Assembly (NCBI RefSeq): GCF_000828475.1
Contig: NZ_AP014648.1
Coordinates: 3,235,400 to 3,299,399 of the forward strand
Length of the DNA stretch: 64,000 nt
Origin: Methyloceanibacter caenitepidi
GTDB taxonomy: Bacteria > Pseudomonadota > Alphaproteobacteria > Rhizobiales > Methyloligellaceae
Reading direction: 5' to 3'
Shown: piece after piece, positions 37,007 through 49,088 of the stretch
How positions within the stretch are numbered: the first letter of the stretch is position 1
Layout of the letters: the number at the start of each line of letters is the position of its first letter
Notes under the pieces: generated by a model
What the model saw: only the letters and a program-made list of their open reading frames with translations
Databases searched by the model: none
What the model was told of the DNA's origin: nothing
Position numbers and translations under genes: made by a program

Positions 37007-37339
37007 TATCGGGCACGACTTTGGCCTCTGGCTGCCAAGTTCAGAACGCTATGCAGCTCCGCGCGGCGGGCTTTGAACCAGCTTACTTCACGTCTGCTTG
37101 CCAGAGCAAAGCTGACCTTTCCAACCGACGACCCGAAGTCCGCTTCTGATCCAAAGCGGACAACCCGCAGAGCAAATTGGTTCGGGCTTCAGATGGGTCA
37201 AACGATAGCCGGATGCTATTGGACTGGCAGTCCATTGCCGCGCATCTTTACGACAAGCCCCAAAAACGGGAGAGCGTTTCCTGGCGCGCCCCGATTGGCG
37301 ACTCCGAGGTTGAAGCGCTTGATAGACGACGGAAAATTC

Positions 37340-38056
37340 ATGCCTGAGACGCAGTTTGAAACACTTGAAGATGCTTTCGCGTATTGCCGGGACCTCGATG
37401 CGTCCCTCGCTGAGCGCCTTCGGCTGTTCTCCGACGCTTCGCGGGCATTGCACCCCGAAGGTCAGGACGTCGTCGACGGCTTGGCCGAACGGCTCAGAGC
37501 CTCCGATGCGTGGGCAGCGGCCCCGGCGCCCGGCGATCTCATGCCGAAATTTGCGCTGCCCGATGAGACCGGACACATTGTCCGTCTAGACGATCTCCTG
37601 GAATCGGGGCCAGCTGCAATCACCTTCCACCGCGGCCATTGGTGTCCTTATTGCCGTATTAGCACCCGAGCTCTCGCCGAGGTGCAGGACCAGATCGCCT
37701 CAGAAGGGGCCTCGATTGTTGCGATAACGCCCGAACGGGAGGCTTACGGCGCGCGTCTCAAAAGCGACTCTGGTATCCGCTATCCGGTGCTAGCAGACGT
37801 CGATAACGGGTACGCACTGTCCATTGGTCTGGCGATTTTCGTGGGCGCGCAGGTCGAAGCAGTAATGCGGCAGGCAGGCCGTGATCTGCCGAGTTACCAG
37901 GGCAACGATGGCTGGCTTCTGCCAATTCCGGCGACGTTTGTAGTGGCGCAGAACCGGCAAGTCGTCACGCGCTTTATTGACCCAGACTATCGTCGTCGCA
38001 TGGCGGTGGATGATCTACTGAGGGCTTTGAATTTGGCCCGCTCCAGAGGCGCCTAG
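37340..38056 (+). CDS. Peroxiredoxin-like (AhpC/TSA) protein, copy 1 (238 aa)
   Basis: Thioredoxin-fold AhpC/TSA protein with an ~85-residue helical N-terminal extension. The active region is FHRGHWCPYCRIST, a CxxC in the place of the peroxidatic Cys, as in the peroxiredoxin-like subfamily annotated as redoxins. The C-terminal LLPIPATFVVAQ and DPDYRRRMAVDDLL are conserved. ATG 37340 with GGAAAA upstream is preferred; the open frame extends left into relic DNA. A paralogue follows 110 bp downstream. Likely reduces peroxides or disulfides in the cytoplasm. Confidence 0.8.
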   Translation: MPETQFETLEDAFAYCRDLDASLAERLRLFSDASRALHPEGQDVVDGLAERLRASDAWAAAPAPGDLMPKFALPDETGHIVRLDDLLESGPAAITFHRGHWCPYCRISTRALAEVQDQIASEGASIVAITPEREAYGARLKSDSGIRYPVLADVDNGYALSIGLAIFVGAQVEAVMRQAGRDLPSYQGNDGWLLPIPATFVVAQNRQVVTRFIDPDYRRRMAVDDLLRALNLARSRGA

Positions 38057-38166: not shown

Positions 38167-38886
38167 ATGGAGACGAAAATGGCCGCGCAGCCGCTGTCCG
38201 AGTTGCTTGAGGAGAAGTTCGTCGAGTGCCGTGACATGGACGGCTCCCTCGGTGAACGCCTACAAGCCTTCGCCGACGCCGTGCGCGAGATGGGAGAGGT
38301 CTTTCAGGTCTCTGTTGACGAGCTCGTGGCCCGCCTTCGCGAGCATAAGGTCGGCGAGCATGCACCCAAGGCCGGTGATCCCATGCCAAACTTCGTCTTG
38401 CCGGACGAGCGAGGTCATTTGGTGAGCCTCGGGGAGATGCTGAAGTCCGGTCCCGTCGCAGTTGTATTCCACCGTGGCCATTGGTGTCCTTACTGTCGAA
38501 TCAATACCAAGGCGCTCGCTGAGATTCAGGATCAGGTGGTGGCGCTGGGAGGCCAGATCGCAGCGATCATGCCTGATCGTCAGCACTACACGAGCGAACT
38601 ACGGGAGAGTTCTAGGGCCAAATTTCCGATTCTCACGGATTTCGACAACGGCTATGCGATGTCGCTGAATCTCGCATTTTGGGTGGGCGCAGAAATGCAG
38701 CAGATGATGTGCGAGGCAGGTTGGGACGTGGCGCCCTCGCAAGGCAGCGACACCTGGCTCCTGCCAATCCCGGCGACCTTCGTTGTTGGCACAGACGGTG
38801 TGGTCACGTCGCGCTTCGTCGATCCAGACTACCGCAAGCGCATGGCTATCGAAGACTTGCTGTCGGCACTGGCGCGGTCCCGCTAA
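38167..38886 (+). CDS. Peroxiredoxin-like (AhpC/TSA) protein, copy 2 (239 aa)
   Basis: Tandem paralogue of the preceding gene: the same FHRGHWCPYCRINTKALAEI active region, LTDFDNGYAMSL, LLPIPATFVVGTD and DPDYRKRMAIEDLL. By eye the two are roughly 55-60 percent identical from the CxxC onward and differ most in the N-terminal helices. The stop overlaps the convergent LysR gene's stop by 3 bp. LysR proteins near peroxiredoxins are often peroxide-responsive, but this one is not obviously OxyR. Confidence 0.8.
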   Translation: METKMAAQPLSELLEEKFVECRDMDGSLGERLQAFADAVREMGEVFQVSVDELVARLREHKVGEHAPKAGDPMPNFVLPDERGHLVSLGEMLKSGPVAVVFHRGHWCPYCRINTKALAEIQDQVVALGGQIAAIMPDRQHYTSELRESSRAKFPILTDFDNGYAMSLNLAFWVGAEMQQMMCEAGWDVAPSQGSDTWLLPIPATFVVGTDGVVTSRFVDPDYRKRMAIEDLLSALARSR

Positions 38887-41532: not shown

Positions 41533-44448
41533 TTACCTCCCCGTCTTCAGCAAACTCGAGCTGTCCCCTCCCACCCGTTTCGCACCTTCAGCCCACTTGC
41601 TCATCATGGCACGGAGCGTTGCGGGCGTGATTGGCTTTGGGAGATGATCGCTCATACCGGCTTCCCGGCACTTCTCCCATTGCGACGCGAGAGCTTGTGC
41701 GGTCATGGCAATGATCGGCAGGTGCTCGAAGCCGCGCATGGCACGGATGGTGCGGGTGGCCTGGAGGCCGTCCACATCCGGCATCTGGACGTCCATCAGC
41801 ACCATGTCGTAATTGCCGGTCTTCACGGCTTCGATCGCTTGCGCTCCGCCTGCCGCCTCGGAAATAACGTACCCCTCAGGCTCGAGCAGCGCCGAAACCA
41901 GGTCGCGGTTGAGATCGACATCGTCGACCACGAGTACGCGCGCTGCCGAACTGGACCTCTGGGGCTCATCCGCGCGATCATCGTCCGCTAGGGCCTGCGC
42001 GGCCATGCACGGTAGAGTGATCTCAAACCACACGGTGGTTCCTTTGCCCTCCACGCTCTCAACGCCCATCTTGCCGCCCATCATCTCCACAAGACGGTAG
42101 GAGATCGCCAGCCCGAGGCCCGTTCCGCCATACCGGCCGTGGATCGATGAGTTTGCTTGCGTGAAGCGATTGAAGATCGTTTCCACGCGCTCCGGATCGA
42201 TCCCGATTCCCGTGTCGCGCACCTCGATTCGCAAATGCTGGACCGAGTCCGAGTGCTCCGCCGCCGAGAGCGCAATGGTGACCGTGCCCTTGTCCGTAAA
42301 CTTCACCGCATTGTTGACCAGGTTGAGCAAAACCTGATGCAGGCGTCCCGGGTCTCCGAAATGCGCCTCGCCGACCGCATTTCCCCTCTCGATTTTGACC
42401 GTCAGGTTCTTCTCCTCGGCCATGAGGGAGACGCTCGCTGCAACCTCCTCAACCAACCTGACCATAGAGAATGGCACGGGATGGAGTTGGGCTGCGTCGG
42501 CCTCGAGGCTGGAGAAATCGAGAATGTCGTTGACCAGCGCGAGCAGCGCCCGGCTGGACGAGTCGATCGTGTTCGCGAAGCGCCTATCCTCGTCGCGAAG
42601 ACCCTTGCTCTTGGCGAGGAGCCCCGCGAAGCCCACGATAATGTTGAGCGGAGTCCTGAGCTCGTGGGTCATGTTGGCGAGAAACTCGGACTTGGCAATT
42701 GTCGCCGCCTCCGCTTCCGTACGCGCGAGTGCCAACTCCTCGTTGGACCGCTTCAGACGTGCGATGAACCGCTCCTCTCTTTGTCGCTCGATAGCCTTCT
42801 TGCGTGAGATGTCGCTGGTCATGCCGAGAAACAGCTGCTTGTCGCCCACTTGCATGGGGGACACGCCGAGTTCGATAGGGAAGGTCGTACCGTCTTTCCT
42901 GAGGGCGTGGACCTCTCGCCCCGCACCGATGATCTGGCCCTCGCCCGTGTCGAGGTAGTTCCGGATGTAGCCGTCATGCTCCCGGCGATAAGGCTCAGGC
43001 ATCAGGATACGGACGTTCTGTCCGATCACCTCGTCCTTCGAGTAGCCGAACATGCGCTCGGCGGCGGGATTAAAGCTTTGGACGATGCCAGCTTCGTCGA
43101 TGACGATGAGGCCGTCCGGTGCCGTCTGCATCACAGCCGAAAGTTGCGTGTTTAGATCGCTGAGCCTCTCATTGCTCTCGATAAGTGCTTTCGACTGCTC
43201 GCGCAGAGCCAACTCGCGATCGCTGATCTCGTCCGCCATGGCGCCGAAGGCCCGTGCGAGGTCTCCGGTCTCGTCATTGCGCTCGCGAACGCCACTCAGA
43301 TCGACGTCGCGACGACCGCGGCGCAAACTCACAGCCGCTGCCGTAACTTCCTTCAGTGGCCGCGTCATATAGCGCGACCAGAATACGGCGAGCGCCGTGC
43401 CACCCAGGATGAAAGCGACAGCCGTGAGAATTACCCGGATGGTGTCGGCGCCAATCTGCCGCTCGAGCCCCGACTCTGCCTCTATAACGCCCAGCGTGAG
43501 AAAACGGTCAGGCCGGTCGCCATCGATGACGATGCGTTTCTGGTGAAGCTGAGACTTGCCGTCGGCGCCGACGACGACGCTTTCCGTGTCCGGATCAATG
43601 TCACCAAGGCCCGGGTACGCGTCTTGAATAAGATGACGTTCGCCAAGGTCGAATCCAAAAGAAAGCGCCGGATCGGGATGGTACAGGTAGTCGCCGTCCG
43701 CGTTGGCGACCACCAGCCTCTGCCCTCTCTGCAGTACGGCTGCCATGCGGCGGAAATAATCCTGGGCATCAGCGTTGATGACGATCATCCCGAAGACTTC
43801 ACCGGTCTTGTCGTCGAAGACGGGTGTCGCGGCGCGAACCGTAGGCCGATGGGGCACCTCGAGTTCGCCGTACTCCCGGTTCAGGTTGACGTCGCTGAGA
43901 AACCGTTCGCCAGGTCTAAGCTCCAAGGTGCGTCTGAAATATGGACGTTCCGCTTTGCGCTGCAGCTTGCTCTCTGGTGTCCTCTGGATACCGTCCTCTG
44001 TCTTTTCCACGCGCACAATTTCTATGCCGTCGTCTGTGGCGGAAACAAACCGGATCTGGAAGTACTCGGGTCTCGCCTCGAGGAAACTTGTGAATATGTG
44101 CGCTAGGCGATTGCCCCAAAGCACCTCCGTGGAGTCATCCAGCGGGTCAATGCCGCCACTTTCTCTTGTACGGATTAGGCCCTGGATCGGCGGCATGGTG
44201 GATAGAATGGTCGTGTCCTGCTTGAGGCGGTCCAAAGAGGCCCCGAGACGGACCGATGCACGCTCCAAGGCCTCGGACGTTGCCAGCGCTTCCATCTGCT
44301 TCACGGCGGAGGAACTCGTCATGTACATGAGCGCAGCAACGCCTAGCGCTGTCACGCTGCCAAAGACGGACGCCCATATCGCCATCTTTGCCGCGAGGCT
44401 GAAGCGCATCCGCTTTGGCGTGGCAGCATTTTGCCGCTCTTCGGACAT
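41533..44448 (-). CDS. Hybrid sensor histidine kinase, Cache-HAMP-PAS-HisKA-HATPase-REC (971 aa)
   Basis: Membrane helices at ~18-45 and ~335-360 bracket a ~290-residue periplasmic double-Cache sensor domain. Then come HAMP (~360-415), a FixL-like PAS (FNPAAERMFGYSKDEVIGQN), the phospho-acceptor H-box FLANMTHELRTPLNIIVG, the ATPase (DTGIGIDPERVETIFNRF; GTGLGLAISYRLVEMMGG), and a C-terminal receiver (VLVVDDVDLNRDLV; phospho-Asp in VLMDVQMPDVDG). A hybrid kinase with receiver needs an HPt partner; one is encoded at 48768-49088. It is the last gene of a four-gene operon with glycosyltransferase and HlyD-like genes, starting 2 bp after the HlyD stop. Periplasmic ligand unknown. Confidence 0.9.
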   Translation of the reverse strand: MSEERQNAATPKRMRFSLAAKMAIWASVFGSVTALGVAALMYMTSSSAVKQMEALATSEALERASVRLGASLDRLKQDTTILSTMPPIQGLIRTRESGGIDPLDDSTEVLWGNRLAHIFTSFLEARPEYFQIRFVSATDDGIEIVRVEKTEDGIQRTPESKLQRKAERPYFRRTLELRPGERFLSDVNLNREYGELEVPHRPTVRAATPVFDDKTGEVFGMIVINADAQDYFRRMAAVLQRGQRLVVANADGDYLYHPDPALSFGFDLGERHLIQDAYPGLGDIDPDTESVVVGADGKSQLHQKRIVIDGDRPDRFLTLGVIEAESGLERQIGADTIRVILTAVAFILGGTALAVFWSRYMTRPLKEVTAAAVSLRRGRRDVDLSGVRERNDETGDLARAFGAMADEISDRELALREQSKALIESNERLSDLNTQLSAVMQTAPDGLIVIDEAGIVQSFNPAAERMFGYSKDEVIGQNVRILMPEPYRREHDGYIRNYLDTGEGQIIGAGREVHALRKDGTTFPIELGVSPMQVGDKQLFLGMTSDISRKKAIERQREERFIARLKRSNEELALARTEAEAATIAKSEFLANMTHELRTPLNIIVGFAGLLAKSKGLRDEDRRFANTIDSSSRALLALVNDILDFSSLEADAAQLHPVPFSMVRLVEEVAASVSLMAEEKNLTVKIERGNAVGEAHFGDPGRLHQVLLNLVNNAVKFTDKGTVTIALSAAEHSDSVQHLRIEVRDTGIGIDPERVETIFNRFTQANSSIHGRYGGTGLGLAISYRLVEMMGGKMGVESVEGKGTTVWFEITLPCMAAQALADDDRADEPQRSSSAARVLVVDDVDLNRDLVSALLEPEGYVISEAAGGAQAIEAVKTGNYDMVLMDVQMPDVDGLQATRTIRAMRGFEHLPIIAMTAQALASQWEKCREAGMSDHLPKPITPATLRAMMSKWAEGAKRVGGDSSSLLKTGR

Positions 44449-44450
44449 GG

Positions 44451-45500
44451 CTAGTCCTGGACCTGTTCAGCGCCGAACAAATCACGCAAGTGCTCGCGCG
44501 CGCCGCCAATTTTTGGAAATCGGGACACGCCGACCTTCTGGTTCAGAGGAAACGAACTGTCGCTCGAAAGACTGATTTTGGCGAGCTGACTTCGGTCCGA
44601 TGGCTTGAAGGTGTTCTGAAACTCTCGTGGCAACGTGTCGGTTACCGGCAGAATCTCGGTAATCGTGCCGAACGTCGCTCCGCGGCCGTCGGAGACGCGC
44701 ACCTCCATTCCGACGGAAATGGGAAAAAGATAGCGGCGCGGCAGATAGGCCAGCACATAGGGCTTGCCGGAATAGACGGACAGGATCGGCTCACCCGGGC
44801 GGTAAACGTTGCCTACCGAGGGAACAGTCGCGCCAATTGACCCGTTCACGGGGGAGCGAACGGTGCCATTATCGTAGAGTGCCTCGACCTTGGAGATCGC
44901 GTCGGCCGCGTCTTCCAGCGCCTCGTCTAGAGAGTCGAGTTCTTCCTGGAGAACCTGACGCTGTGTCCTGAGACTCACGCGATCGCGGTTTGCCTCATAA
45001 CTCACCTTCAGCGCCTCTTGATAGCGCGCCGACGTCACAAGCTTCGCGGCGGCCAGATCGTCGAACTGCTTTATGGTGTTGACAGCTTCATCTGCACGGC
45101 GTTCGGCCAGGGGCAGGAGCTGCGCTACGTTCTCCGACCGCACCTTGAAGTCGGTGGCCTTCGCGACGAGCTCGGCACGCTTTGTCGACAGATCGGCAAG
45201 GCGCTCCAGAATCTCGGTCGACTGGAGATTGATCAATACGCTCCCCGCGTCGACATCTTGCCCTTCTCTCACGTCGACCGCTTCCACGCGCGCGACATAG
45301 GGCGTGGCGATGACATGCTGGTCCCGCAGCACAAGGCCGTCGGCTCTTAGAAACACGTAGTCGCCGAAGAGATAGTTGGCGACGACGAGTCCGAACAGAC
45401 AAAGCAGGACGATGTAGATGGTCCGCCCCGTCTTGCTGCGGATGACACGCTGCTCGTTTGGGATATTGTCAGGACGCTGACGATTTTTCAGCGGTCTCAT
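44451..45500 (-). CDS. HlyD-like membrane fusion protein (349 aa)
   Basis: One N-terminal membrane helix (TIYIVLLCLFGLVVANYLF, ~27-47), then a biotinyl/lipoyl-like beta hairpin (ATPYVARVEAVDVREGQDVD), a long coiled coil (~100-210), and a second half-hairpin (GTVRSPVNGSIGATVPSVGNV). This is the periplasmic adaptor layout. No ABC or RND partner is nearby; instead the glycosyltransferase gene ends 3 bp upstream. HlyD-like proteins paired with a family 2 synthase occur in alginate (Alg44) and in the rhizobial mixed-linkage beta-glucan system (BgsB with BgsA), which supports a role in polymer export. Unlike Alg44, no PilZ domain is visible. Confidence 0.8.
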   Translation of the reverse strand: MRPLKNRQRPDNIPNEQRVIRSKTGRTIYIVLLCLFGLVVANYLFGDYVFLRADGLVLRDQHVIATPYVARVEAVDVREGQDVDAGSVLINLQSTEILERLADLSTKRAELVAKATDFKVRSENVAQLLPLAERRADEAVNTIKQFDDLAAAKLVTSARYQEALKVSYEANRDRVSLRTQRQVLQEELDSLDEALEDAADAISKVEALYDNGTVRSPVNGSIGATVPSVGNVYRPGEPILSVYSGKPYVLAYLPRRYLFPISVGMEVRVSDGRGATFGTITEILPVTDTLPREFQNTFKPSDRSQLAKISLSSDSSFPLNQKVGVSRFPKIGGAREHLRDLFGAEQVQD

Positions 45501-45503
45501 GGG

Positions 45504-46766
45504 TCACCTCCGTACGCGATGTACCTTTTGCGGCACATAGGTGTCTCTGTACGACGCAGCGAAAATCCACTCTTGAAGGTAAGCTCCGAGCCGGACGAAG
45601 CGCATTAGAAAGCCATTGAAAAGGCTGTAGCCGGGCAAGAATGGAATTAGCCGTATGGTATCCACCTTTGGCGTCGCTACCGCCGCCAAGGAGAAGGCCA
45701 ACGCATCGAGCACGAACATGCCCGCCTGCGCGCCAAGCAGGATGACCAAGCCAAGGTCTCCATAGGTCGCGAACAGCCAAACGATATAGACCGGAAAAAA
45801 GAAGGCCGAGCCCAGATTGAAGACGATAAAGTCGATTTGGTGCCAAAGCTCCCCGAGATTGAAACGCGGGCTCAAGGGATTCATCAAATCGGCATGCTTC
45901 CGGTAGCGCAGGTGAACGGCATCCCGTTCCCACCGGAAGCGTTGGCGGATCAGCACGGACAGTCTGTGCGGAACATCCGTATAGCAGAGCGCATCGGCGG
46001 CAAAGACAGTCTTCCACCCCGCCTTCCGCAGCGATAGCGTGACATCCAGATCTTCGCCGCCGCCGGCGTCATATCCGCCAACGCCAAGCAAGGCCTTGCG
46101 CCGAAATGCGCCGAAGGCGCCCGACACGCAGCTGACCTGATCGGTCAAGTCGGAGGCCTGCTTGCCTTGCGAGATCGAGATCAAATACTCGATCGCCTGA
46201 AAGGCAGTCACTAGGCTTCGCTCGGGGTTGCGCACCACGACGTTGCCGGCGACGGCGCCAGCGCGCGGATCGGCGAACGGTTCGAGAATATCCCTGAACG
46301 CATGACGGTCGAAGGTGCAATCGCAATCCACCACGACGACGATGTCGCCGGTGGCTCGGGAGAGCGCCAGGTTCAGCGCTGCCGACTTGCCGGCCCGTAC
46401 CTGCGTGCTGTGACCCTCGGTAATGAGGCCGGCATCTTGCAGATCCCGTAGTTTCATCGGTGTACGGTCGGCGGAGCCGTCGCTGACTGCGATGATCTCG
46501 TCGGGCACTCGACTTTGTTCGTGGAGCGCAAGCACGCAACGTTCGATGGAGTCTTCCTCGTTGTGCCCGGCGATAACAACCGTCACGCGCCCGAGGAACG
46601 GATCCTGCCTCCTCTTCGGGTAAAGAAGGATGGCGGCGACGGAGAAGAAGCTGAGCGTGTAGCGCGGGAACTCGAAGATCACGACGAACCAGAACAGCCG
46701 AAAGAGGCTCTCGCCACTTTGCGCCGTCAAGTAGGTGATGCCATCTGCGACGGGCTGGAGCATCAC
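45504..46766 (-). CDS. Processive family 2 glycosyltransferase (420 aa)
   Basis: A membrane-embedded GT2 synthase. An N-terminal helix (~25-48) precedes the cytosolic GT-A domain with VTVVIAGHNEEDSI, VSDGSADRT, the DxD-type VVVDCDCTFD, the catalytic GGGEDLDVTL and the Q-R-F-R-W motif in IRQRFRWERD. C-terminal membrane helices follow (~300-380). These are the signatures of cellulose/curdlan/hyaluronan-type processive synthases. At 420 residues it has no PilZ or other c-di-GMP domain. It overlaps the response-regulator gene by 4 bp and is followed by the HlyD-like gene. Polymer identity unknown; beta-glucan is a guess by analogy. Confidence 0.85.
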   Translation of the reverse strand: MMLQPVADGITYLTAQSGESLFRLFWFVVIFEFPRYTLSFFSVAAILLYPKRRQDPFLGRVTVVIAGHNEEDSIERCVLALHEQSRVPDEIIAVSDGSADRTPMKLRDLQDAGLITEGHSTQVRAGKSAALNLALSRATGDIVVVVDCDCTFDRHAFRDILEPFADPRAGAVAGNVVVRNPERSLVTAFQAIEYLISISQGKQASDLTDQVSCVSGAFGAFRRKALLGVGGYDAGGGEDLDVTLSLRKAGWKTVFAADALCYTDVPHRLSVLIRQRFRWERDAVHLRYRKHADLMNPLSPRFNLGELWHQIDFIVFNLGSAFFFPVYIVWLFATYGDLGLVILLGAQAGMFVLDALAFSLAAVATPKVDTIRLIPFLPGYSLFNGFLMRFVRLGAYLQEWIFAASYRDTYVPQKVHRVRR

Positions 46767-48568
46767 GCAAAGTCTCCCGGACCGAAGACCTGGAACTCGG
46801 GTCCGATATCGCAGCGAAGCGTCTTCTCGGCGGCGGCTACAAGAAGGTCAAAGTCGGCCTTCGTCTCCTCTGGCTCGCTTCCGGCCATGAGGACGAAGTC
46901 CCTGGAGTGGCCGGAAACTACGAGATCCGCGTCGCTGCTAAGGCTCGTGCGCAAATTCTCGATGAAAAGATCGCGCACTTTCGCAAAGGTGCGCGCGCCA
47001 TGTTGCGCGGCGATCTCTTTTTCGTTGCGATAATGCAGGCTGATTAGCGTGAACGGCACCTGAGCGTCGTTGTACTTCTTGGCGGCCGAGTTGAGCGCGA
47101 CGACCAACTCGAGCGGCAAGTCTGCGAAGCGAAGCGCGTGGCTTGCCGTTCCCAACAGAGAGTGACCGTGCTCGGCGAAGCCGGCTCCTTGGTCGGTCAG
47201 ATGATAGCTGTAGATGTCGCGCGGCGGCGCGATATCGGAGTCGACGTGGCCGCCGCAATCCAGGCAAACGAATCCCACCGCCGGCTCCGATGCGGCATGG
47301 CCGCAAGCGTCGCAAACCACCATGGAACCTGGCCGGTCGTAGTCGAAGCCGAAATGGGTCAGCTCGTAGCGGCACTTGGGGCATACGAGACGGTCGCCAC
47401 GGCGAAACTCGCGCTCGGGCCCCTGATAGGCGCAACGGAAGTGATGCAGGTACTGCTCTTCCTCGAGCTGGGGGCTGTGGCACTGACGGCACTCCTCGCG
47501 TACGTGCAGGCGAAGAGAGTCGCATTGCGGGCAAACATGGAAGCGATCGAAGAACTCACGCCGCAATAGTCCGCGCTCGCAAAGCGCTTCGGCCTCGCGT
47601 ACCGCGACCGCCGTGGCAAGAGCGACGTTGTAGGACACCAGCCACTTGGATTGCGGGTCGTAGGTAGGCGCGAGAGGCTGGTCCGCCACGAACAGGCGTC
47701 CGATAAGCTGCTCGCCGAGGTCTTCGCTAAATCGTACGTCGCGGTCCAACTTCATCCGCCGGTCGTGGGCCTTGCCAAGAACCTGCTCGAGATAGGTCGT
47801 GTCCCGCGCTGTGAGCTTGGAAGCATCGACATCCGAGGCATGCCCGAGAAGACCGGTAGCATCGACGATCGGCAGCGAAAATAGGGCCTTGGCGCGCCAA
47901 ATCGCGCCGAGATCCTCGACCGAGACGGGCTCCTTGATGAGGATGCCATCGAAGCGCGGATCGGCGAGGCTCGCTTGGATAGCCCGCGCCGACAAGTGTC
48001 CCGCTTGGATGTCGCCAGGCCATGTCAGAAAATTGTGACCGAGGCTTTCAAGGGGCGATCGTGAGACCGCAGCCGAGCCGGGGCTTTTTTCCGCAGGGGG
48101 CGCTTCTCGGGCCTCCATGTCCGCGATTTCCGCTTGATCCTCGACGACACGCGCGACCTCGTAGATATCGAGGGGCTTCGGCAGGACGTGATCGAAGTTG
48201 TGGCAGCCCTCCGGATGCGCCAGCAAACCCTCCGCATCCAAGGTGATCGCGATGAGCTTTGGGATTTTGCGGTCGCCCGCTTCACGCCGGAAGATTGTCG
48301 CGACCTGCAAGCCGTCCATTCTCGGCAGGTGGAAATCCAGCAAGGCGACGTCGTACGAGTTCTGCCGCAGCGCCGCGAGCGCCTGCTCCCCGTCGGTAGC
48401 GATATCGACGTGGTGGCCGCGCTGGCTGAGCAACATTTTCAGGATTTCGTGGGTCGTCGGGCTGTCTTCGGCGACCAGAATGCGCCGGGCCACCGGCAAC
48501 TCCGGGGCACCTTCAGGGTTCTTGGTAATCACGGATAGCATGTCGAGATTCGGCCCGGTTTCACTCAA
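46763..48568 (-). CDS. Response regulator with zinc-ribbon (TackOD1-like) and degenerate GGDEF-like output (601 aa)
   Basis: Residues ~28-145 are a receiver domain (ILVAEDSPTTHEIL; phospho-Asp78 in LLDFHLPRMDG; Lys131). The middle (~340-440) is a dense cysteine region with pairs at 346/349, 360/363, 396/399, 419/422 and 435/438, resembling zinc ribbons of TackOD1-type output modules. The C-terminal ~130 residues (FTLISLHYRNEKEIAAQHG; AKVRDLFIENLRTSL; DADLVVSGHSRDFVLMAG) resemble a GGDEF-related domain without the GGDEF signature, so diguanylate cyclase activity is unlikely. First gene of the four-gene operon, coupled to the glycosyltransferase by a 4-bp overlap, so probably its phosphorylation-dependent controller. 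Domain names for the output half are tentative. Confidence 0.75.
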   Translation of the reverse strand: MSETGPNLDMLSVITKNPEGAPELPVARRILVAEDSPTTHEILKMLLSQRGHHVDIATDGEQALAALRQNSYDVALLDFHLPRMDGLQVATIFRREAGDRKIPKLIAITLDAEGLLAHPEGCHNFDHVLPKPLDIYEVARVVEDQAEIADMEAREAPPAEKSPGSAAVSRSPLESLGHNFLTWPGDIQAGHLSARAIQASLADPRFDGILIKEPVSVEDLGAIWRAKALFSLPIVDATGLLGHASDVDASKLTARDTTYLEQVLGKAHDRRMKLDRDVRFSEDLGEQLIGRLFVADQPLAPTYDPQSKWLVSYNVALATAVAVREAEALCERGLLRREFFDRFHVCPQCDSLRLHVREECRQCHSPQLEEEQYLHHFRCAYQGPEREFRRGDRLVCPKCRYELTHFGFDYDRPGSMVVCDACGHAASEPAVGFVCLDCGGHVDSDIAPPRDIYSYHLTDQGAGFAEHGHSLLGTASHALRFADLPLELVVALNSAAKKYNDAQVPFTLISLHYRNEKEIAAQHGARTFAKVRDLFIENLRTSLSSDADLVVSGHSRDFVLMAGSEPEETKADFDLLVAAAEKTLRCDIGPEFQVFGPGDFA

Positions 48569-48767
48569 TCAATTGCGCGATCAAGCATACGGGCCCCGCA
48601 ATAAGCCTGGGTGAATCTTCCCGGCCACTTTTGCTGCTTTTCTCGCTGATACGGTTACTTAGTCGTTAAGAGCGGGGGATTCCGGATCGGGCGCGGGCGC
48701 TAAAACCCACTGCGTTTAAGGCGTTGCTTTCAGGTTCCATTATCCTTTGAACCGCTAGGCTTCGAGC

Positions 48768-49088
48768 ATGAAACCGGTGCTCGATCACACCAAGCTCCAG
48801 GGCCTGAAAGAGATCCTCGGAGAGCAGAAGTGCAACGCCGCGCTGGAGCGCTTCCAGGAGGAATTGCGCACCTGCCTTGCCGCAATCGAGGGTGGCGGCG
48901 CGGAGCGCGCCGAGAGCGCACACAGGCTCGCGGGCGTCGCAGGCCTCTTGGGATTCGACGACCTCGAAGAGCACAGCAGGCGGTTTCTCGACGCGGTTAC
49001 CCAAGAACAGGACGATGTCCCGGCGCTGGCCGAGAACCTCGTCGAAGCCGCGCATCGCGCAGAAGCGGAACTTTCCGCCGCAGTTTAG
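48768..49088 (+). CDS. Stand-alone HPt phosphotransfer protein (106 aa)
   Basis: Four-helix histidine phosphotransfer domain with the phospho-accepting His52 in ESAHRLAGVAGLLGF. No other domain. It is transcribed divergently from the response regulator gene, 199 bp away, and is the natural intermediary between the hybrid kinase (41533-44448) and the REC protein (46763-48568). The start ATG 48768 lacks a strong ribosome site. Confidence 0.85.
   Translation: MKPVLDHTKLQGLKEILGEQKCNAALERFQEELRTCLAAIEGGGAERAESAHRLAGVAGLLGFDDLEEHSRRFLDAVTQEQDDVPALAENLVEAAHRAEAELSAAV

Follow-up and report, generated by a model that had tools for sequence, protein, structure and literature searches.

A zinc-binding regulator of the TackOD1 family, which is without known function, probably switches the activity of a sugar-polymer secretion module that is widespread in bacteria and is built around a GT2 synthase and a HlyD-type adaptor. 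Together, TackOD1, GT2, and HlyD form a real and conserved synthase-switch module that has apparently gone undescribed; a literature search joining degenerate GGDEF domains, HlyD, and GT2 found no such system. At the locus studied here, which lies in a 64,000-nucleotide stretch of Methyloceanibacter caenitepidi DNA (the window), we think it probable, judging from sequence, that the TackOD1 protein acts as a synthase switch whose input has changed from c-di-GMP to a kinase-HPt phosphorelay. If this is true, a synthase has moved from second-messenger to phosphorylation control.

TackOD1 is a widely distributed domain of obscure function, and its linkage to one synthase provides it with a definite partner and a role that can be tested; the prospects for giving it a function are good. 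The same linkage suggests that many Proteobacteria, among them free-living, plant-associated, and host-associated genera, possess a kind of envelope glycan system that is so far undescribed.

A synthase, an adaptor, and the parts of a phosphorelay share one locus

The genome that carries the locus is a single contig of 3.42 Mb, and its closest relatives among named genomes with the locus are Methyloceanibacter species. Four genes lie on the minus strand in the order regulator (601 aa, 46763 to 48568), GT2 synthase (420 aa, 45504 to 46766), HlyD-type membrane-anchored periplasmic adaptor (349 aa, 44451 to 45500), and hybrid sensor kinase (971 aa, 41533 to 44448). A gene for a stand-alone HPt protein (106 aa, 48768 to 49088, plus strand) is divergent and lies 199 bp from the regulator start. 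The kinase and HlyD genes are 2 bp apart and the HlyD and GT2 genes 3 bp apart, while the regulator stop and the GTG start of the synthase overlap by 4 bp (46763 to 46766, minus strand), which is probably a sign of translational coupling; in most loci of the family, genes likewise overlap or are separated by only a few bases. The ORF coordinates match the positions, 2- to 3-bp gaps, and 4-bp overlap given in a preliminary description of this DNA. The regulator begins at a TTG codon and has an in-frame ATG at codon 10. In the intergenic region from which the regulator and HPt genes diverge (48569 to 48767), no convincing sigma-70 promoter was found, and the sigma-70 promoter and terminator scans gave results at chance level. 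Elsewhere in the window, two tandem, similar ORFs (37073 to 38056 and 38167 to 38886) resemble thioredoxin-fold/peroxiredoxin proteins.

Pfam searches divided the kinase into a PF21623 sensor and HAMP, PAS, HisKA, HATPase, and REC domains. It had been described as a Cache hybrid kinase; the hybrid architecture holds, and the Cache label is loose because dCache_1 scores below its cut-off. The HPt protein, correctly described before as stand-alone and divergent, scores just above the Pfam cut-off (24.9 bits versus 24.6) and contains one of the three HPt domains that this genome encodes. The key residues of a relay are present in all three proteins (H595 and REC residue D886 in the kinase, H52 in the HPt protein, and D78 in the regulator), in agreement with the earlier statement that all parts of a His-Asp-His-Asp relay are found in one place. 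In a related locus from a complete genome (L018:12737-15662), the kinase orthologue is broken into three ORFs with 4-bp overlaps.

The synthase matches several GT2 models in Pfam and contains the motifs D, DxD, GED, and QRFRW, with hydrophobic segments at residues 311 to 361; by these motifs and predicted membrane segments, it is a processive-type enzyme. The QxxRW and D/DxD/ED motifs are invariant or nearly so across the GT2 family, in which most full-length members score about 330 to 650 bits on the family profile. The adaptor matches HlyD_3 (30.6 bits versus a cut-off of 22.2) and has one hydrophobic segment (residues 23 to 51), an N-terminal anchor. Both proteins are thus as first described, a HlyD-like adaptor and a GT2 enzyme without PilZ; Pfam found no PilZ domain in the adaptor, the synthase, or the regulator. 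Identity as a PgaC/IcaA PNAG synthase was rejected (136 bits versus the NCBIfam equivalog cut-off of 422.3), and membership among cellulose or NodC synthases was rejected by the cut-offs of their models.

The synthase/HlyD pairing had been likened to BgsA/BgsB, but this relationship is distant: the GT2 profile gives BgsA of Sinorhizobium meliloti a score of 122 bits, and a 40-kb stretch around it contains no TackOD1 match. We therefore rejected BgsA/BgsB homology as the main guide. The two systems share a GT2 synthase beside a HlyD-like gene and regulation that does not involve PilZ; however, c-di-GMP binding by BgsA takes place at the C-terminal tail of the enzyme itself (PMC5567048), and such a tail is absent from the 420-aa GT2. 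The Alg8/Alg44 alginate polymerase likewise combines a GT2 enzyme, a membrane-fusion partner, and a cytosolic sensor, although the sensor there is a PilZ domain fused to the HlyD-like protein Alg44, whereas here PilZ is absent and the regulator is a separate protein (PMC8461298). By analogy, the synthase may work like a PelD- or Alg44-controlled synthase that uses a different sensor.

The regulator combines REC, TackOD1, and degenerate GGDEF-like domains

Profile searches of the 601-aa regulator found homology to REC, TackOD1, and GGDEF. The REC domain (residues 29 to 140; 48149 to 48484, minus strand; E value of 3.3e-15) has the acid-pocket and active-site residues E34, D35, D78, T109, and K131, of which the phospho-acceptor D78, T109, and K131 are identical in 20 of 20 aligned REC-bearing family members. 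The TackOD1 domain (PF18551; residues 280 to 457; 47198 to 47731, minus strand) was matched at 5.9e-50 and 169.9 bits, against a cut-off of 32, and has the 11 invariant cysteines of this family, arranged as five CxxC pairs and an HxxC. The many CxxC pairs reported for this protein are therefore real, but what was called an unusual zinc-ribbon regulator belongs to a named family.

The original definition of TackOD1 came from response regulators of archaea that have 11 conserved cysteines, and its function was then described as obscure (Galperin 2018, PMC5847659); an earlier study had located most of the family (arCOG06883) in type IV pilus loci of thaumarchaea (PMC4858521). The archaeal proteins share the domain, the pattern of 11 cysteines, and the REC-TackOD1 architecture with the regulator described here. 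They differ in lying near type IV pilus loci, whereas here TackOD1 is fused to a GGDEF-like domain and linked to a GT2/HlyD synthase.

An AlphaFold model of the full-length regulator has a mean pLDDT of 88. Its best full-length Foldseek match is PleD, with a poor global fit because the domains move. PleD also has REC, a receiver-like middle part, and a GGDEF fold, but it is an active cyclase and lacks zinc ribbons. The short alpha/beta stretch between REC and the zinc part matches receiver proteins weakly (VIA Z of ~4) and, in the model, may be a decayed second receiver. The TackOD1 core is modeled confidently (pLDDT of 93.7); compared with the PDB, it gave no Foldseek match with an E value of ≤0.001 and no VIA Z above 5.9.

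The C-terminal domain (residues 473 to 601; 46766 to 47152, minus strand) is a degenerate GGDEF-like domain, as had been proposed. Aligned by hhalign, the C termini of the family match the GGDEF domains of the same genome (96.4%, E value of 1.2e-9), and a profile search of the PDB with this domain returned diguanylate cyclase/GGDEF structures at 3.4e-8. The GG(D/E)EF motif is absent from the regulator, and a pattern scan of the family found it in two members only, outside the GGDEF-like domain. On this basis, we rejected an active diguanylate cyclase, which is the annotation of relatives in some records. Several REC-less members exceed the Pfam cut-off for GGDEF, and one has a weak match to PelD_GGDEF.

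TackOD1 genes are linked to one GT2/HlyD synthase across genomes

Three family searches, blind to neighboring genes, yielded 37 intact TackOD1 genes: 12 among relatives, 15 across the phylum, and 10 in the class of one such genome. A GT2 gene adjoins 36 of the 37, with L167 as the exception, and in these 36 loci HlyD lies beside GT2 or is separated from it by one gene, except where a contig ends. On plasmid records, GT2 is next to TackOD1 in 8 of 8 examined. In a set of 61 relatives, TackOD1 exceeds the cut-off in 11 genomes, and a GT2 orthologue scoring >330 bits occurs in those 11 and in no others. This adjacency and matching co-occurrence argue, on genomic grounds, that TackOD1 is the partner of one GT2/HlyD synthase in these bacteria. 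A scan of named genomes and plasmids agrees with the linkage and contains one clear orphan (L073), in which the frames are broken; two other loci (L042 and L052) lie at contig ends. No outer-membrane partner or porin was consistently linked across the loci.

Loci of this kind occur in alpha- and gammaproteobacteria, on one Phycisphaera contig (L076), on a Plesiomonas plasmid, and on a small mobilizable Aeromonas plasmid. Because the arrangement recurs across Proteobacteria and on one Phycisphaera contig, it is not due to chance. The preliminary picture of a phosphorelay joined to a synthase gains good support from the conservation of the neighborhoods, but the core unit proved to be TackOD1, GT2, and HlyD, which occur widely without any kinase, REC, or HPt.

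Receiver domains and the RxxD motif distinguish two forms of the regulator

Within 6 kb, a gene for a kinase or another receiver is present at 23 of 28 REC-form loci versus 1 of 39 REC-less loci, and an HPt gene at 22 of 28 versus 0 of 39. The 28 usable REC-form loci include four with REC in a separate or broken frame, and Fisher tests of these contrasts ignore descent; by independent pairs, the REC/HPt and REC/kinase contrasts nearly always run in the expected direction and fall short of significance.

Pel synthesis is switched on when c-di-GMP binds PelD at the RxxD motif of its degenerate GGDEF domain (PMC7112168, PMC8461298). PelD resembles the TackOD1 proteins in that a degenerate GGDEF domain is part of a regulator encoded with the polymerizing machinery, and it has RxxD in common with the REC-less members. 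It differs in being a membrane protein with a GAF domain and without zinc ribbons or REC; moreover, Pel uses a soluble GT4, and RxxD is lost in the 601-aa regulator. Of 44 REC-less sequences, 30 have the motif, which lies at the I-site position. Its two residues are the best-conserved of the 163 columns of the GGDEF-like domain in the group that falls outside the REC-containing clade (D in 29 of 29 and R in 28 of 29), and a third Arg used by PelD is found in only 17 of 29. As read from these sequences, most family members probably respond to c-di-GMP via the regulator and not the synthase.

Among REC forms, R and D occur together in 4 of 23, and most lack both residues. The M. caenitepidi regulator has SxxD in place of RxxD, with no Arg at or beside the site, and in its close relative L018 an Arg is displaced by one residue (RSDAD). 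A REC-less Brucella/Microvirga clade and a few other members have neither REC nor RxxD. The loss of RxxD in REC-bearing members supports the original suggestion that control here may be by phosphorylation rather than by c-di-GMP.

A tree of the GT2 synthases shows six changes of REC and five of RxxD, but the two move in opposite directions in only about one independent pair (0.9 of 5). The REC/RxxD contrast on the tree is largely one historical event, and this count lends no support to repeated exchange of REC for RxxD. The Brucella/Microvirga clade adjoins the REC forms, as if REC had been lost again. Because the tree was built quickly and its branches near the root are long, a change of input from c-di-GMP to phosphorelay is likely in direction but short of proof.

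A candidate mechanism and its alternatives

We propose that the GT2 synthase polymerizes a glycan in the inner membrane that would pass the envelope with the HlyD-type adaptor, and that the cytosolic TackOD1-GGDEF-like protein would turn this synthase on and off as its dedicated switch. Most relatives would probably use the switch to read c-di-GMP via a PelD-like RxxD site; the lineage studied here would have gained a receiver domain and lost the RxxD site, so that the input would be phosphorylation by the neighboring hybrid kinase. Following established hybrid-kinase logic, the kinase would autophosphorylate at H595, and the phosphate would pass to D886, to HPt H52, and on to regulator D78. 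The phosphorylated regulator, changed in this way, would gate the GT2/HlyD complex, a step suggested by gene linkage that is near-obligate, by the translational overlap, and by the precedents of PelD and Alg44. The zinc ribbons may serve in structure, in docking to the synthase, or in redox or zinc sensing. We infer the phosphotransfer, the binding of switch to synthase, the direction of control, and a secreted polysaccharide as product from what the sequences show: the parts of the locus and their conserved linkage, the association of REC with HPt and kinase genes, and the pattern of RxxD. More tentatively, TackOD1, GT2, and HlyD could represent an unrecognized class of synthase switch with exchangeable inputs, namely, a c-di-GMP I-site in most bacteria and a full kinase-HPt phosphorelay in an alphaproteobacterial branch. 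REC-less members with RxxD and REC-bearing members without it offer a natural experiment on a change of input in a biofilm-type synthase.

Since the genome encodes nine GGDEF domains as well as PilZ domains, c-di-GMP signaling is present in this bacterium, and the TackOD1 protein could be c-di-GMP responsive here too, with REC only modulating it. Such a dual input would fit the four REC-form relatives that keep RxxD and the displaced Arg of L018, but we consider it rather unlikely given the SxxD site of the 601-aa protein, with no Arg at or next to it, and the loss of both residues in most REC forms. The GT2/HlyD pair might also make a short glycan or glycolipid, or modify an envelope component, without secreting a polymer; the synthase does score far below every curated synthase model (136 bits versus 422.3 for PgaC), and no porin is consistently linked. 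This appears improbable, however, because the QxxRW and D/DxD/ED motifs that are conserved in the family are typical of processive GT2s and the HlyD-type partner recalls Alg44 with Alg8.

We judge it quite improbable that the TackOD1 protein is instead a transcriptional response regulator, with a winged helix and zinc ribbons, whose linkage to the synthase reflects transcriptional control of the operon. REC-wHTH-TackOD1 proteins are listed in archaea (Galperin 2018, PMC5847659), and VIA-align matched the TackOD1 core weakly to MarR-type winged helices (Z of 5.0 to 5.5 over ~70 residues), but a Z of 5 is background level for such searches. REC-less members that have a GGDEF-like domain and share an operon with the synthase show the design of a posttranslational EPS switch, and the gene overlap with the synthase recurs. 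A synthase switch under phosphorelay control remains the reading that we favor.

Broken, split, and unusual copies

L073 and L167, which have no GT2 neighbor, are adjacent to a kinase and a response regulator and may be orphan outputs or remnants. In Methyloceanibacter superfactus (L023, L027, and L044), the frames of one TackOD1/GT2/HlyD set are broken, and another copy of TackOD1 has HlyD and GT2 upstream, in reversed order. The TackOD1 frame of Rhodobium orientis (L034:9812-13003) runs past its expected stop into the GT2 region, which is a frameshift or an assembly error. On a plasmid of Sinorhizobium medicae T10 (L129:5007-7598), GT2 and HlyD genes of the same family precede a TackOD1 remnant of 109 aa that may be a copy in decay, and on an Alisedimentitalea plasmid (L084:5560-6845), a 312-aa TackOD1 protein and the next ORF, of 113 aa, resemble a split TackOD1/C-terminal domain. 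A 29-kb mobilizable plasmid of Aeromonas caviae (L083) carries TackOD1 and GT2, which suggests horizontal spread. At one REC-less locus (L115:8959-11769), a 936-aa AMIN-domain protein is encoded beside HlyD, and similarly large ORFs occupy this place in L109 and L114.
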